A stretch of DNA of 20,559 bases, from NCBI GenBank assembly GCA_013416795.1, contig RQSC01000031.1:296696-317254 (forward strand), read 5' to 3'. This DNA comes from Prasinococcaceae sp. CCMP 1430 (Eukaryota; Prasinodermophyta; Palmophyllophyceae; Prasinococcales; Prasinococcaceae). The notes under the pieces were generated by a model that was not told where the DNA came from, made no database searches, and saw only the letters and a list, made by a program, of their open reading frames with translations. Below, in pieces: positions 11,735 to 20,559 of the stretch. A program made the translations under genes and the position numbers. Position 1 is the stretch's first letter, and the number at the start of each line of letters is the position of its first letter.

Positions 11735-14700
11735 TCAGCCCATTGCTGCGTCCTCCGCCCACGCCCTGAGCAGGTAGCGCAGCTCTGCGCCGGCGAAAGC
11801 CCACGTCGCCAAACGCTCACGCGACGTGTGCCGGCGGTCCTTTGCCAGCGCATCAGCAGCCTGAGTAGCAACGCTGCAGAGCTCCAATCCGACCAGCCGC
11901 GCCTCCAGACCACGACGCGCGATGACATCCAGGCTTGCGAGCTCCTCCCGTGCGGAGATGAAGCGCGCGCGGAGAGCGCGGAGGGCGTCCCAGTAGGCAT
12001 CCTTGCCGCGCCGCTCCGAGACGCTAGCGGCGGCGGTCGTGTTGATCTCCTTGAGCTCCGCCAGCAGCCCGCGAGCGACCCGCTTGTACTCCTTGAGTGC
12101 AATTGCGGGAATGCGCGTGTTAGACCAGAACGGGCGCGGCGGCGGCGTGGATGCTGCAGGGGGCATCGGCGGCGCTTGCGGCGCGGATCGCGTGCGCTCG
12201 TCGAGCTCCACCAGCTTGTCGTTGACGGCTGCAAGCAATGAGGTTGATCGGTAGAACTTGGCACTTGTGCCCGACAGACCAAGCCCGGGATGCACCTTGC
12301 GGCTGCTGCTGCTGCTGCTGTCCTCGAAGTGCGCCAATCGCCAATGCGACTGGCCGTGCTCATCGTCATAGGTCGGCATCGCACAGGCCTCCTCTTTCAT
12401 GAGCGCGCGCGCAGCCTCTGACACGTCGTAGCCGTGTTTGGGAGCGTCGATGGCCAGAACGGCCAGGGAGCCCAGCTGGCGGAGCTGAGGCTGGAGAGCA
12501 CCGGGACGCTCTGTGAGAGACGTCTGAGCATCCACACAGCGAACCCACCGCGAAGAGGCGATGCCAAGCACGCGTCGCTGCTCGACGCTGAAGACGGCGT
12601 GCTCGCGAACTGCCTTGACCAGTCCGCCCATGTCGCGCACACTCCTCGCGTGGGCCGCAGATGCCTGCTTCACCCGTTCCACGTAGTCGGTGGTCCCAGG
12701 ACTTGAGGCGGGCGCGACCGTGCCCATGTTTGTCTTGGTTTTCTTCCTTGCACTCTGTTGCTCTTCGGTGCCATCGGACGCGGTGCTTCTGCTCCTCTTC
12801 TCACTCCTCTTCATCTTCTCCTTTTCGTCTCGCTTCGAGTTCTCAGCGCGGCACACCTTCCCAGCAGCGCCCTTGGTAGGCGCGGGAGCGCGAGGCGTCG
12901 CCGCGGCCGCCAGCGGCGATCGCCCGCCCGCCGCGCTCCTTGATTGCGACCGCGGCTTGGACGGCGATGGCGATGGCGCGAGGGCTGCCGGCGGCTTTGG
13001 CGGCGGCCTCGATCCCGGGGGCAGCGGCGGCTGTATGTCGGGCAGCAGCGCGAGCGCCGCCGCCTTCTTGGCCTGGCGCTCCTCCTCGGTCATGGCGGCG
13101 CAAACCCTTAAACCCTCCTTCTTGTGCAGGGAGTCGACGAAATCTCGCTCATAGACACACCACGCCGTGTCACCGTCGAAGTCGCCATTCGAGAGCCGCG
13201 AGGCCATGGAGGTCGTCTCGTCCGAGCAGTTTATGAAGATGACCCCTGGCATGAACACATCCAACTCTTGGCACGCGACCGCGGTTGCGACGACGACATC
13301 CTCCGGCTGATAGCTCGGCGACCTCCAGAGCGCCACCGGGCCCTCTACCCATCCATCTGGGCCGCGCACCGCTACCTCGCCCGGGCCCAACACCCCGAAG
13401 GGATCGGGGATCATGTACAGTTGCACCGCGGCCTGCAAAGGGATCTTGAAGTCAAAGAGCTCCTTGACCTCAGTCGCTTGGCGCCGCCTGAGGAACGCGG
13501 CAGCCTGTGAGGCGACGTCACGGTCATCGCCAGCTTCAATCGCCATTGAGACGGAGCTTGAACCGCGACGGCTAAGCAACTCCAAGAGTGCCTGCAGATT
13601 CTGCTCATCCTCGCGGACGCAGCGCCTCGGTAGACGCTCCAGTAGCCGCTGAGGACTGTTCGAGTCCGCCCAATTGTTGACCACAGCAGAGTGGGCCTCT
13701 GAGGCCATGCGCAGCAAGGCATTACGTAAGGCGAGAACCCCATCGTTCCCATTGGCCAGCCACGCACTAGCCTCCAGGACAGGGACAATCTCTCGGTATA
13801 GCCTAGGCGTATGGTGGATCGAGTCAGCCTTGCAATGCGCGACAACTTCAAACATGCACAGGCACGCATGTGGCGCGTCGCCGACGTCATACTTGACCTG
13901 GCTGTGCCTGATGGCCAGCGAGGATGTCTTCTCGAGCCCTAAGCGCTCGACGTAGTCCCTTTCCCTCAGCACAAGGAACATGCCCTTCGCTCCTCCGATG
14001 CGCGCCTGGAATGCGCTCGGAACAGATGATAAGGACAGCTGGTCGGCCACCCTCCTTCCGAGGCCCTCGCGCATGAATCCGCACCCATCGGTGAAGCATT
14101 CGCCGCGCTCATGGTCCGGGATCAGAGTTATATCACGGCTCCAATCGAGCTCGACGGTGGGCCGAGTCAGACTCAGGGAGAGTTCCAGATAGGCGCACGC
14201 CTTGAACGCCGGCTTGTTCAAGTTAGCCGCGCACTGAGGCATCATCTCCGCCAGGACGTCCTCGACGGCTATCCTATCAATGCCTCTCGATGACGAGTCG
14301 GAACTCTCAGCGAAGAAGTGCAGCACGCCAGGCTTGCAACAAAGCAGTCGGTACTGGCGACCCGCCACTGAGAGCGTCTCCCCCGTGAGCCGGCGAACCG
14401 TCGCGGCGCTGAGGTTGCCGATTCCAACCCTCAAGAACCTTCCATATCCAAATCGCCGCATAACGCGACGAGTGGCCTGCCCACTGCTCACGCTGTACTC
14501 CACGGGTGGGAAGAGCTCGATCTGAAGGCCGCCATCGTCGTTGTCCCGCGCTGCCGCGACGAAGACGAGCTCGCCTTGGCACGCCTGAGCGGCAGCGCTT
14601 GTTCTGTCGTGACCCCTGATGTCCTCGAAAGATTTTAACGCGTCTCTACTGTCGAAGGCGCTCGCCCAGCCTCCTGTTGCCCAATCAGGCTCCTTAATCG

Positions 14701-17700
14701 GCTCAGTCGAGTCCATCACGCAAGCGCACTTGCGGAAGGCGGAAGCGAGCTTGCGCTTGGCCATCAGCATCGACTCCGCTTCGCTCACCTCGGCAACGAG
14801 GCCTGCGGCCAGCATCTCATCAATGACCTCGACCTCCTTGCCCTCGTCGCGCATCGATTGCATACAAGCCGCAACGGCCCACTCCAGTAGAAACCGCCTG
14901 TCGAACGCCAAGGCATCCCACGCCTGCCAGAATGAAGCCCCTGTGGTGGCCTTGCCGAGGAGCTGGTAGCCTTTGCTCCGCAACGAGCGTCGCCCTTGAG
15001 CGCTGCCGGAAGCCGCTGTGGCCGGGCCGGCGGCGACGGTGCCGCGCAACAGCCGTTCTTGCACCGCCCTGATGCGATCGATGTTCTGCTGTTTCTCGAG
15101 TTCGTAAGGCACCAACGCAGCCGCATCCGCGACAGCCAAAGGAGTGTCGTTGTTGACCGGACAAGCGCCTTGAAGTGACTGTAGCGGCGGCACCACGGCC
15201 ACAACCGGACGCTTAAGCTCCTCCTCGATGGCCGCGATGATCTCAGTCGCTCGCGGCTCCGCGCACGCAGCGTCGAAGTCCTGTAGGCTGCAGTGTGTCG
15301 AGGGCTTCTTGGTCTTCGGCTCGACCTGGCTTGCCGCGATGAAGTTTCGAGCTTGCTTCCACGGTACCAGAACGCAGCCCTGATTGTGCGTGGCCGGCGG
15401 GACAACGAGATATGCCGAGAAGCGTGGCTGCGCGCAGCGACAAGTCAACCAGGCGAGCCCGTACCGGCCGATCGCGCGGCTTGAAAGGATGCCCTTGGCA
15501 AGGCTGGATTGAGAATTCGCGCTCGTGTTCGCGCGACGCGTCGCCAACTCATTTTCGCTGCGTGCCTCGTATCGTCGGCACGAAAGCAGCAAGGTGCCGC
15601 CGGTCCTGAACTGCAGCTTGCTGCGAGCCTGGGCGCTAAGAGCGTCCCAGCGAGGGATTTGCTGCAGCTTGAGGTCATTGCGAATGGCATCGAGGAGCTT
15701 TGTCGAAAGATCCGCTCGCCATGTGTTGGAAGCCTTGCCGTCAATGAGGCGTCTGAGGAGCGCGCGACAGCGTGCAGACACCAAGGCGTGGCCCGCGTAA
15801 TTTGCCGCGTGTATTAGTCTGAGGCGGCTTCGGTGGCTTGACACAGCCAGATCGAAGAGAACACCTTCCCGAAGAAGCAAGTCCTTCCAGCCCAGCCTCT
15901 CCTCTTCGGGGACGTGCGTCGCGGATGGTGCCTCGGCTGCTGATGATGCAATGCCAAGGCAGCACGCCGCCGCGTGCTCCACGTCGCTCTCAGTGTCGCT
16001 CTGGTCATCCCACTGCTTCGTAAACTTCCCACCGCAATCCTTTCGACGACGAGGCGTCAAGGACATGCATTCTATGCAGTCAGGACACTTCCACTTGCTT
16101 GCTCCAGCGCGATCTTGGGCTCCATCCGGCAGGCAACTCCGGTGAAACGCTCGCGGACACGTCGCGCAGCAAATGAGAAGCCCGGGCCCTGCGCACATGC
16201 TGCAAATCGACTCGTTGGGGTTCAGGGACGCCGGCAGTTCGAAAGTGGCCCAGACGTGCGCCACGGTAGTAGCTCCATTCGGGTGGCCCGCGCGCGTTTC
16301 CTCCAGGACTCTTTCGAAAGAGCGCTCCCATTCTATCCCTGCGGGGGTCGATGAGAAAACGAGGTGGCTGGCGTACTTCTCGTTCACACGCTGCACCCTG
16401 AACTGGAGGAGCCCCTTCACGATGAGTACACAGATCAGCTTCGAGAGGAACCACTCCACCAGACGCGGCGAGCAGCACGAAAATGGAAGAGCGGAGAGAT
16501 CGGCACGAGTTTTCTCGAGGAGCTGATTGAACGTCATGCTCTTCGCGGAGGACGTGAAAGCGGATAGAACACTGTGTGCAGGGACAGAGATGTCCTCCGA
16601 TTCGGCGTAGCACTCCTCGTCGAGGCCTGGATGTAACTCCAGGCAGACGTCGCAGAGCCCACAGTTCCCCCCGACGTCAGAGCTCTCGAGCGCTCGCTCG
16701 AGGGAGACCTTGCGGCAGGTGGCGACTGAGTCGAGCATGCGGAGGACCCGTATGGCATCATCGCGCCATGAGCGATCGCCGTGACCTAACACATTTGACC
16801 AAATCTTGAGGTCCTGGATGTGCCACGAGATAGAGCAGGCACCCGCGCCTCTGATGCGCCCCGCCTGCTCCATCAGCGCAACAGGGCTGGGAGGAACACA
16901 CAGCATTGCCACCCACTCTACATTGGGGTGTGCCTCCGCATGCGACAGCGCGGAGGTACTCACAACCACTTGCGTTTTGCCCTCGCGCCAACTATGGAGC
17001 ACCTCGCGCCTGGTCTCAGCGTCCATCCCACTCTCGCCTCTCCCGCTGTAATACGAAGCCAAATTTCCGAGCCTTGCAGCAAGGCTGCGCCCGTCCTTCT
17101 TCAGCTTGGAAAGCTCCATTACTGTATCGTTTGCGTCCGTTTTTCTCGGAACGAAGATGATGCCAGGACGCCCCAACAAAGTTTGACCTGGGTTCTGCGC
17201 ACTCGGGACTGCATCGAGCCCCCTCAGCAGCCTCTTCAGCGAGGCAGGGTCGCTGGGCCTTGCGCTAAGACGCTCCGTCACATCGTAAAAGATCCTGTGC
17301 TGCCTGCAGGACAGACGGAAGAACATGACGTTAGCGGTCTCGTCTGCCAGGCCAGTGATCTCACGAATCGCTGGCCAAAGAGGGCCAAGGGGGACGGCAG
17401 ACAATAGAGAGACCGGGGTCGTGCCACAGGACTGACGCACGCGTGCGACCCGCAGCCGGTACTCGTCAGCCTTGTCGTCGGCCAGCAGGTGGACCTCGTC
17501 GAGGCAGATGCGGCGGAGCCGTCCCTGCCTGCGGAGATCCTCGAGCGTCGACAGCAAGGCGGTTGGCCCGTGGGAATCGCCCCCGCTTGCTTTATGCAGA
17601 GTTGCTACGACGAGTGCCGCGCCCTGATGCCCCCGCAGCTCGGCGAGTTGGGCACGCTCAGCAGCGATCTTGTTGGGTTCGCTATCATGAGCCTCCAGCA

Positions 17701-18267
17701 GGAAGATCCTCAGCCCACCCACTGCCTGGCAGTTGCTGAGACTCGCGACCAGGGCGGTGGGCATTGCCTGCAGCGGGCAGAGGACCAGCGTGATTCCCCC
17801 AGCGGCGAGCGAGGGGCCCGCGATGGCCATGGTCTTGCCATGGCCCGTCGGCCACTCGCACACGACGTGGCGTCCGCTCAGCGAGGCGCGGAGCGCTTCC
17901 CTCTGCTGCGGCCGGAACTTGAAGCTCGCGGCGGAAGTGTTGCAAGCGGCGGCGAGAAAGGGCACCGACTCATCCAAGCGGCTCTCCACCGCAGCCTCGC
18001 TGGCATGACCGTAGCTGTGCATGCCGCTCATCCAGTCGGGCAGCTCAGCGTCGCGCAGGGCAGCCCTAAGCGCCTTCGCCCCTTCGCGGGACTTGATGAG
18101 CGCATCGAGCTCCCCGCCCCGCTCCCGGAGCTGCCGCTTCGCCTCAGCGAGTGCGGCATCGCCTGGTGCCGGCTGGTTTACCGCGGCGGATGCATCCTGC
18201 AGCCACTCGCTGCTGCTGTCCTCCCGCACTTCCTGCGCGCGCTCGAACGTGCGAAGAAGAATCACGG
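11735..18267 (-). CDS. RecQ-like helicase - PHD finger - cellular RNA-dependent RNA polymerase fusion (main exon)
   Basis: One stop-free frame of 2176 codons ends at TGA 11735-11737. Its first nominal start codon is a GTG (18263-18265), so translation should begin in an upstream exon or at ATG codon 79 (18029-18031). Numbering from the GTG: RecQ motif 0 FKFRPQQ (115-121), Walker A WPTGHGKT (138-145), DEVH box (256-259), motif III SAV (289-291), motif VI-like QAGRIRGAG (467-475). The RecQ zinc cluster follows: Cys517, CGLC at 535-538, Cys541. A winged-helix-like stretch (about 595-655) precedes a perfect C4HC3 PHD finger (Cys688, 691, 700, 703, His708, Cys711, 727, 730). Residues 740-1240 are unassigned. 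The RdRP begins near 1250 (RFGYGRFLRV), with FTDGCGFM (1391-1398), RIGGAKG (1422-1428), RSPSYQPEDV (1648-1657), catalytic DFDGD (1695-1699) and IDAPKHG (1939-1945). A basic, proline-rich insert (1728-1858) interrupts it. Expected activities are ATP-driven DNA unwinding and RNA synthesis from RNA or single-stranded DNA for silencing. GC content looks lower than in neighbouring genes. Confidence 0.95.
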
Positions 18268-18441
18268 CTTCAGTTTTTGTATTTGTTCAATCGCAACCGC
18301 GGTCGGTGCGTGCGACGTAGCGTGTGCGCACACGCGCGTGTGCGTGTGTTGGTTAGCACGTTGTACCATGTGTATATGTAGGCCGTAGGGGGAGCGGTCC
18401 GCGGATGGTGGGGCGCTGCATGCAATGCAGAGCGGACGCAC
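18268..18441 (-). other. GT-AG intron joining the ePHD exon to the RecQ-PHD-RdRP exon
   Basis: On the minus strand the donor is CGAAAG|GTGCGT (exon ends at 18442) and the acceptor is AACTGAAG|CC (exon resumes at 18267). The upstream exon ends after one base of a codon (G) and the downstream exon starts with CC. The codon GCC is restored and both frames continue in phase. A branch-point-like GTGCTAACC lies inside, and the first AG after it is the proposed acceptor. An in-frame TGA at 18287-18289 stops unspliced readthrough. RNA evidence is lacking, so this remains a prediction. Confidence 0.75.
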
Positions 18442-19147
18442 CTTTCGAGAGCATGCGACTGCTGCTGCACTTTGAGGCGCAATCTTTCGTACAGTACGCC
18501 TCGAAGTGCTCCTCTGACAGCAGCGCCACTCCATGCCGCGCCGCTACCCATAGACATGGGTAGTGCCACGCCGCGCCGCTCGTGCACGTGCCTGTTCGAG
18601 CGGTGCAGCGCACGCTTGCGCCCCCACGGCCGCAGTGTGCGCACGTCGTGGTCACCCCGTCGCACATCATGTCTTTACAGACTCGATGTGCGACGCCGCC
18701 ACGGCAGGCTTCCAGGGCACGCTCGTCGTGCACATCGTCGAACGCATACGGCGGCCCTTTGGCCGCCTCGTACGTAAGCCCGCAGAGGCAGCATGTGTCC
18801 GCCGCGCCGGATCCGCCCGCCGCGCCGGATCCGCCCGCCGCGCCGGATCCGCCCGCCGCGCCGACCGCTGCCGGGCAGCGCGCCGGCGACAGAGCTGGCA
18901 CGCCCAGCGCCGGCAGCTGCGACAGCGGCGTCGCTGCTGCCTCGCTGCGCCTTGCGCCGCAGAGCGCGGAGCTGGCGCTCCTCACGCTGCGCCTCGCGTA
19001 CGGGCGCCCTGCGCGAGCGCGCACGTGAGGAGCGCTCGCAGGCCCTGAGGATGTCGTCCATGAGGGGTGGCGGCGCGTGTGAGCGCCGCGGCGCGCACGA
19101 GTGACCCGCTTGTGCGCGGGGGGAGGGGGGGTATGGCCGCCCCCCAC
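18442..19147 (-). CDS. ePHD (extended PHD) zinc-finger exon, probable N-terminal part of the RecQ-RdRP gene (5' end unresolved)
   Basis: From about 18800 down to 18480 the minus strand encodes a zinc finger with the ePHD pattern found in PHF6, JADE and BRPF proteins. Numbered from the GTG at 19147, there is a first knuckle Cys119-x2-Cys122...His154-x2-Cys157. An atypical PHD half follows: Cys169-x2-Cys172, GGAS, Cys181, Cys188, His195-x2-Cys198 and further cysteines (219, 223, 227). ePHD modules bind nucleosomes, histone tails or nucleic acid. Upstream is an 18-bp repeat encoding GGSGAA units and then Ala/Arg-rich sequence of doubtful coding status. The frame is open to 19180 but has no ATG before the finger. 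An ATG at 19059-19061 (MDDILRACER...) opens a protein-like frame that is out of phase, so a small intron or a sequencing indel may lie between. The 3' end splices in phase to the RecQ exon. Confidence 0.7.
18801..18863. repeat. 18-bp tandem repeat, 3.5 copies, encoding GGSGAA units
   Basis: Three exact copies of GCCGCGCCGGATCCGCCC (18801-18854) plus a half copy. In the ePHD frame (minus) this encodes Gly-Gly-Ser-Gly-Ala-Ala repeats immediately before the zinc finger, which would act as a flexible linker. In the alternative minus frame it reads as Arg/Gly-rich repeats. Confidence 0.95.
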
Positions 19148-19523: not shown

Positions 19524-20559
19524 TCACGCCGCCGCGGGCTTGGGCGTGGCCTCCGGGCCAGGGCCGTCGTCCTTCGCGGGCGCGAGCGGCAGCAGCTTGG
19601 CGCGGCTGTACGCGTACGATCCCGCGATCGCCACGCACGTGCCCGACACCGACGCCGCGGTCACCGGCGTGCTGAAGAAGAGGATGGAGCTGAAGATGAT
19701 GAAGACGCGCTTCATGGTGTTGACCACGGCGTACGTGACGGGCTTGAGCGAGGTCAGCGCGCCATAGCTCGACATGTTGTACAGATGGTACGTGATACCG
19801 CCGCCGAGCACCAGGTGCGTCAGCTGCGCGGTGCCGACCTTGGCGGCGCCCTCCGCGAGCCCCGGCCCCCAGTTGTGGCCGTCGAAGAGGATGGCGCCGG
19901 GCAGCAGGAAGCACAGCGACAGCATCGTGATGCACCCGTACAGGTTGATGCCCGATATCTCAATGCCGTCGAGCAGCTTTTTGCTGACGATGGTGCGGGT
20001 CACCACCGCCAGGTTGGCCACGTTGGCCGTCACGAACGCCGCCGTCGAGAAGTTGAGCTCGGTTATGGCCGCCACTGACACGCCGGCCACCACCGGGATC
20101 AGGCTCAGCCACACCAGCGCGTGGAAGCGCTGCTTGAGCACGAGCGCGCACACCGCCACCGTGTAGAGCGGTTCGGCGCTCTTGATGACGTGGGTGAAGC
20201 TCACCGCCGACTTGGACAGCGCGAAGCACGTGCCCACGTGGTTGACCAGGTGGCAGAGCGCCACCGGCAGCAGCTTCTTCCAGAAGCCTTTGGGCAGCTT
20301 CGGAGGCTCGACCACGCGCGTCAACCACAGCAGCGCCATGAAGATGCCGCCGCACAGGAGCTCCATCGTGCACATGAACATGGGATAGGGAAAGGCATTG
20401 AGCACGGACTTGTTGTAGAGGTTGAAGGCGACGTTGAAGGTGTACCATGCGACGACGAACCCCACGAGCTTGAGGTTCACCCCCGCCAGCGGCCCCGCTT
20501 TGCCCTCCTCCTCCGCACCCCCCTCGCGCGCGCCGGCGACGGCCGCGCGCGGCGGCGCG
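19524..20559 (-). CDS. Plastid-type sugar-phosphate/phosphate translocator (TPT family), N-terminus outside window
   Basis: The frame ends at a stop at 19524-19526 and runs open to the right edge, so the N-terminus (with any plastid-targeting extension) is missing. The first candidate start in the window is GTG at 20480, which lies within the frame. Visible family features, numbered from there, are WYTFNVAFNLYNKSVLNAFPYP (12-33, helix 1), SFTHVIKSAEP (94-104), SKK (166-168), and the substrate-binding dibasic pair in NTMKRV (Lys257, Arg258) preceded by KPVTY. Eight to ten hydrophobic segments fit the drug/metabolite-transporter fold of these antiporters. They exchange phosphorylated three-, five- or six-carbon compounds for inorganic phosphate across plastid membranes. 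The variants SFTHVIKS and NTMKR resemble the glucose-6-phosphate/xylulose-5-phosphate branches, as I recall them, more than the classical triose-phosphate branch. The C-terminal tail is short, Pro/Ala-rich and hydrophilic. Family is sure; substrate is not. Confidence 0.92.
   Translation of the reverse strand, partial: APPRAAVAGAREGGAEEEGKAGPLAGVNLKLVGFVVAWYTFNVAFNLYNKSVLNAFPYPMFMCTMELLCGGIFMALLWLTRVVEPPKLPKGFWKKLLPVALCHLVNHVGTCFALSKSAVSFTHVIKSAEPLYTVAVCALVLKQRFHALVWLSLIPVVAGVSVAAITELNFSTAAFVTANVANLAVVTRTIVSKKLLDGIEISGINLYGCITMLSLCFLLPGAILFDGHNWGPGLAEGAAKVGTAQLTHLVLGGGITYHLYNMSSYGALTSLKPVTYAVVNTMKRVFIIFSSILFFSTPVTAASVSGTCVAIAGSYAYSRAKLLPLAPAKDDGPGPEATPKPAAA

Follow-up and report, generated by a model that had tools for sequence, protein, structure and literature searches.

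A predicted RecQ-like helicase, PHD finger and QDE-1-like RNA-dependent RNA polymerase in a single reading frame of Prasinococcaceae sp. CCMP 1430

The window (the whole stretch of 20,559 nt that was analysed) carries on its minus strand a single open frame (11735..18265, read from 18265; 2,176 codons plus one stop) that is predicted to join a divergent RecQ-like helicase, a PHD finger and a cellular RNA-dependent RNA polymerase (RdRP) in one polypeptide. The initial annotation had proposed this architecture for a frame of 2176 codons at 11735-18267; its coordinates were right, the strand being minus, and the positions it gave for Walker A, DEVH, the zinc cysteines, the PHD finger and the RdRP motifs proved exact, with Pfam domains of the three blocks above cut-off in one stop-free frame. 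We propose, with a probability of about 0.5 for this reading as a whole, that the frame is a single nuclear gene whose product would be a silencing enzyme, with a RecQ block used mainly for docking and a tethered RdRP that feeds PAZ-PIWI silencing.

All the joints between domains are stop-free and coding-like. The same stretch has stops throughout on the plus strand, and dinucleotide shuffles of the frame contained at least 33 in-frame stops each (mean 49). The linker between the PHD finger and the RdRP (14477..16075, minus strand, residues 731-1263) appears to be coding by both its codon usage and the shuffles: as a segment of 526 codons it was open in 0 of 2,000 shuffles, its codon usage is that of the flanking domains in the coding frame only, and the other five frames contain 8-15 stops. 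Additionally, the G+C content by codon position is continuous along the entire 2,176 codons. A chance open frame was thus rejected, because neither the linker nor the whole frame stays open when shuffled. The 6.5 kb without stops, together with intact catalytic motifs in the RdRP, indicate purifying selection.

The first block comprises a RecQ-like helicase core and zinc domain (16514..17920, minus strand, residues 116-584), identified by TIGR00614, by phmmer against the PDB and by Foldseek with an AF2 model. Pfam DEAD (residues 118-290, E 7.7e-10) and Helicase_C (residues 369-471, E 5.8e-6) were both over their curated cut-offs, and the best NCBIfam match was TIGR00614 (recQ_fam; residues 116-584, E 4.3e-17), with 62.1 bits against a curated cut-off of 219.8 and hence far below the level of canonical members. 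The PDB matches to this block were all RecQ proteins (human RECQ1, RECQ5, BLM and RECQ4, and bacterial RecQ), and none was Dicer-like. We compared its motifs with those of 17 RecQs from viral contigs and of six RecQ loci from the same genome. Motif 0 (FKFRPQQ, for the RecQ F-R-P-x-Q), Walker A (PTGHGKT, residues 139-145; 17831..17851, minus strand) and motif II (DEVH, residues 256-259; 17489..17500, minus strand) are kept, and a zinc cluster (C517, C535, C538 and C541; 16643..16717, minus strand) aligns with the RecQ pattern C...CxxCDxC, although the PF16124 match to it is below cut-off (E 0.013, 16.7 bits, cut-off 25). Three sites are degraded: the aromatic-rich loop (17456..17479, minus strand), which reads DDKADEYR versus QWGHDFRP in relatives, the motif V region (16922..16954, minus strand), with SALSHAEAHPN versus an AFGMGI-type sequence, and the motif VI region (16841..16870, minus strand), with EQAGRIRGAG versus the QESGRAGRDG type and only its first GR kept. 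The other complete RecQs of this genome retain all three. The aromatic-rich loop of RecQ enzymes serves to link ATP hydrolysis to the binding of DNA, and their arginine finger is supplied by motif VI. A candidate winged-helix (RQC-like) region was located by eye at about residues 599-675 (16242..16471, minus strand), where Pfam gave no match and the AF2 model stays under pLDDT 60; the RQC winged-helix domain is missing from some RecQs.

Structure modelling, advised in the initial annotation for each block, yielded a two-lobe, RecQ-like helicase core but failed for the RdRP, whose AF2 model, made without relatives, had a mean pLDDT of 38 and was unusable. The helicase model reached a pLDDT of about 80-90 over much of both RecA-like lobes, with low values after approximately model residue 420, and RecQ structures were its best matches in Foldseek. 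Nevertheless, the model was built from an alignment of RecQs, and VIA-align, used as another aligner, lists DEAD-box helicases too, so the identification as RecQ rests on sequence and the modelled fold is consistent support only. From its motifs, the block is RecQ-derived and divergent rather than a canonical RecQ helicase. The earlier suggestion that the protein acts by unwinding DNA or R-loops is therefore unsupported as stated, given the degraded state of the aromatic-rich loop and of motifs V and VI; the loss of the loop and of motif VI points instead to a motor that has diverged or to a module used for docking.

The PHD finger (16076..16204, minus strand, residues 688-730) exceeds the PF00628 cut-off (E 6.5e-6, 26.5 bits, cut-off 24) and has the C4HC3 arrangement. 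Its nearest solved counterparts by sequence are the fingers of CHD4 (E 3.5e-11) and AIRE (E 8.6e-9), which bind histone H3 tails. In the fingers of CHD4 and AIRE the third zinc-cysteine is followed by an acidic residue (CDTC/CDGC), whereas the loop CCATC of the fusion protein has Ala at this position (CATC), and binding of the H3 tail by this finger is thus uncertain.

The third block is a QDE-1-like cellular RdRP domain (PF05183; 12353..14476, minus strand, residues 1264-1971, E 1.8e-59), which scored 202 bits against a cut-off of 23.8 and covers positions 15-560 of the 582 of the profile. It contains FTDGCG (1391), IGGAKG (1423), DFDGD (1695-1699) and DAPKHG (1940); FTDG, GGAKG, RSP and GDFDGDTAW align with QDE-1, the last of these (13160..13186, minus strand) being the catalytic sequence, which aligns to GDYDGDMAW. 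Among PDB matches, a QDE-1 family chain (E 3e-17) scored better than Arabidopsis RDR2 (E 4e-6), whereas the rice OsRDR1 carries the name of a land-plant RDR1. A Pro/Lys/Arg-rich insertion with NLS-like basic clusters, delimited by eye (12611..13108, minus strand, residues about 1720-1885), is placed between the catalytic loop and DAPKHG. The fusion gene holds the only RdRP match in the 24.5-Mb genome. As judged from its sequence, this RdRP is complete and QDE-1-like, with its catalytic motifs present.

The assembly (24.5 Mb in 145 contigs) is eukaryotic and intron-bearing, with 67% G+C at other loci. The neighbours of the fusion gene are ordinary genes that include triose-phosphate transporter-family, EF-hand, amino-acid permease and BTB genes; the first of these (window 19524-20480, minus strand; PF03151, E 2e-89) adjoins it. 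There are at least five canonical RecQ loci elsewhere in the genome, which would leave the fused copy free to specialise. Two other RecQ genes (L005 and L007) have an intron at a nearly identical place, inside motif VI and before GRAGRDG.

A search of the genome for Argonaute and Dicer, also raised in the initial annotation, gave a positive answer for the former, with one PAZ-PIWI protein, and no match for the latter. The single PIWI match (E 2.7e-20) is accompanied by a weak PAZ match, and the only PIWI-domain protein found is L003, at G000:C31:119748-120602. By eye, it has RNGV for RDGV and is without the terminal His of the slicer tetrad, so that slicing by this protein is doubtful. Two RNase III models and Dicer_dimer gave no match genome-wide, in a search that genes split into exons can escape; the Dicer_dimer model matched no control genome either, and therefore we do not claim that Dicer is absent. 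Some RNase III is expected in a plastid-bearing eukaryote, and here it would be either exon-split or truly missing. A standard dicing and slicing pathway is thus not demonstrated, given the lack of RNase III and Dicer matches and the incomplete PIWI tetrad seen by eye. Several matches to C5 DNA methyltransferases were found in the genome.

The initial annotation noted that the RecQ protein QDE-3 and the RdRP QDE-1 act together in Neurospora, a link that is strengthened by a rice pair, OsRecQ1 and OsRDR1 (PMC3559376), and by an interaction of EhRdRP1 with RecQ in Entamoeba (PMC8546589). In Neurospora crassa quelling and qiRNA production, QDE-1 copies single-stranded DNA better than RNA before going on to double-stranded RNA, a synthesis promoted by RPA, and the interaction of QDE-1 with RPA needs QDE-3 (PMC2950127). 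The products of QDE-1 stall as DNA/RNA hybrids, of a kind that BLM is reported to unwind (PMC2950127). This system resembles the fusion in its QDE-1-type RdRP, in fold and motifs, and in its RecQ partner, but there the two are separate proteins, with QDE-3 a homologue of WRN and BLM, and no PHD finger is described (PMC2950127). In rice, OsRecQ1 and OsRDR1 are both required for the damage-induced aRNA and qiRNA small RNAs, although they are two genes and OsRDR1 is named as a land-plant RDR1 (PMC3559376). In Entamoeba histolytica, EhRdRP1, RecQ and EhAgo2-2 interact and the small RNAs bear a 5' polyphosphate, being likely RdRP products; the RecQ was a low-confidence match in the Ago pull-down and, while associated with an RdRP as in the fusion, is again a separate protein (PMC8546589). 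By analogy, the fusion would be the RecQ and RdRP partnership of these three organisms within one polypeptide.

We propose that the RecQ block, which keeps its ATP-binding lobe, mainly docks at DNA structures or single-stranded DNA, rather than acting as a processive helicase, and that the docking sites would be damaged, stalled or repetitive loci. The PHD finger may add a contact with histone H3 or chromatin, and the tethered QDE-1-like polymerase would copy the exposed single-stranded DNA and/or nascent RNA, giving RNA and double-stranded RNA. The latter would pass to the single PAZ-PIWI protein, directing silencing. Recruitment is better supported than unwinding as the role of the RecQ block because the motor motifs are worn. 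A more specific version, which we put forward tentatively, is that of an initiator that works without Dicer: the RecQ-derived module would sense DNA of damage or replication without processive unwinding, the PHD finger, perhaps along with an extended PHD finger encoded upstream, would read nucleosomes, and the RdRP would copy the exposed DNA strand, possibly into polyphosphate small RNAs for a non-slicing Argonaute.

A RecQ block that still works as an ATP-driven helicase or translocase, parting DNA or RNA:DNA hybrids and feeding the strand to the polymerase, would agree with the conserved Walker A, DEVH and zinc cysteines, with both RecA-like lobes in the modelled core and with the need to remove the hybrids on which QDE-1 stalls, a task for which the activity of BLM offers a precedent (PMC2950127). 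We regard this as doubtful in view of the changes of QWGHDFRP to DDKADEYR, of AFGMGI to ALSHAE and of GRAGRDG to GRIRGAG, in a genome whose complete RecQs keep these motifs. The protein could also belong to an already known class of N-terminal helicase-RdRP fusions, present in Dictyostelium, in peronosporomycete oomycetes including Phytophthora, in Hydra and in Nematostella (PMC4791657). Its helicase would then act on RNA, clearing or threading templates for the synthesis of secondary siRNA, and its likeness to RecQ would be the result of divergence from a shared SF2 ancestor. The class has the same order, with an N-terminal SF2 helicase followed by a C-terminal RdRP; DEVH is reported in the Dictyostelium RDRs too, and the helicases joined to RDRs group in a clade separate from Dicer (PMC4791657). 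Compared by description, however, those helicases are DEAD-box/Helicase_C proteins discussed in relation to Dicer, and neither a RecQ zinc domain nor a PHD finger is reported for these fusions, whereas the protein studied here has both the RecQ zinc cluster and a PHD finger, and its PDB helicase matches were all to RecQ; we therefore consider membership of that class unlikely.

The two remaining alternatives concern the gene itself. Two adjacent genes, one for RecQ-PHD and another for the RdRP, might seem to be one if an in-frame intron had gone unrecognised, if the assembly had joined them or if a stop had been missed, and it is true that these domains exist as separate proteins elsewhere and that the genome has introns; the open linker of 526 codons, with flank-like codon usage in its own frame only and closed in all 2,000 shuffles, makes this very improbable. 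Least probable of all is that the fusion protein is real but a relic, with silencing decaying and the gene left with a non-silencing role or none. The undetected RNase III, a PIWI protein that by eye has neither RDGV nor the terminal His, and the degraded helicase motifs would fit such a decay, but the frame and the RdRP motifs bear the mark of purifying selection noted above, and RNase III genes split into exons could have been missed. The docking and silencing reading is thus the one that we prefer.

The initial annotation knew of no such fusion, which holds for the RecQ and PHD type but not for helicase-RdRP fusions in general (PMC4791657). We found no description of a RecQ-RdRP fusion in the open-access literature, and the new part would accordingly be the combination with a RecQ-type helicase and a PHD finger, helicase-RdRP fusion as such being already known. 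Relatives of the whole protein were not found in viral and prokaryotic genome contigs, and the pattern GD[FY]DGDxAW occurred in 3 viral and 16 genome contigs, none of which holds a relative of the RdRP (tblastn best E 0.11). The fusion would add a helicase type to those known to be joined to an RdRP. Neurospora and rice both need a RecQ helicase to produce the small RNAs made by an RdRP, for reasons that are understood only in part. Their fusion in nature suggests that the two proteins act physically on one template, and would turn a genetic association between RecQ and RdRP into one testable polypeptide. Their coupling could be assayed in a single protein, with recruitment of the RdRP tied to chromatin reading, and the worn helicase motifs would allow a test of whether the role of RecQ is recruitment or unwinding.

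The gene probably extends further upstream. The first ATG in the frame is residue 79, with none earlier, yet the codon usage of residues 1-78 looks coding, and an upstream exon is thus likely. A possible candidate, offered as a lead only, is a Cys/His-rich, extended-PHD-like segment (18353..19147, minus strand), in a frame with the same orientation as the fusion gene and weak codon usage. A putative splice would link the two, from a strong, phase 1 donor-like site at 18441 (AAAG/GTGCGT) to phase-fitting acceptors at 18267 or 18228; a different RecQ gene of the genome has an intron with the same donor hexamer. The segment (window 18353-19147, minus strand) reads CCLCG ... TCAHCGRGGASVRC ... AWHYPC ... 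YCTKDC and resembles an extended PHD finger, a likeness for which searches of Pfam and the PDB gave no support. Directly before the Cys-rich segment, at about 18805-18860 (minus strand), there is a tandem 18-base repeat, GGATCCGGCGCGGCGGGC, in approximately 3 copies, which codes for GSGAAG.
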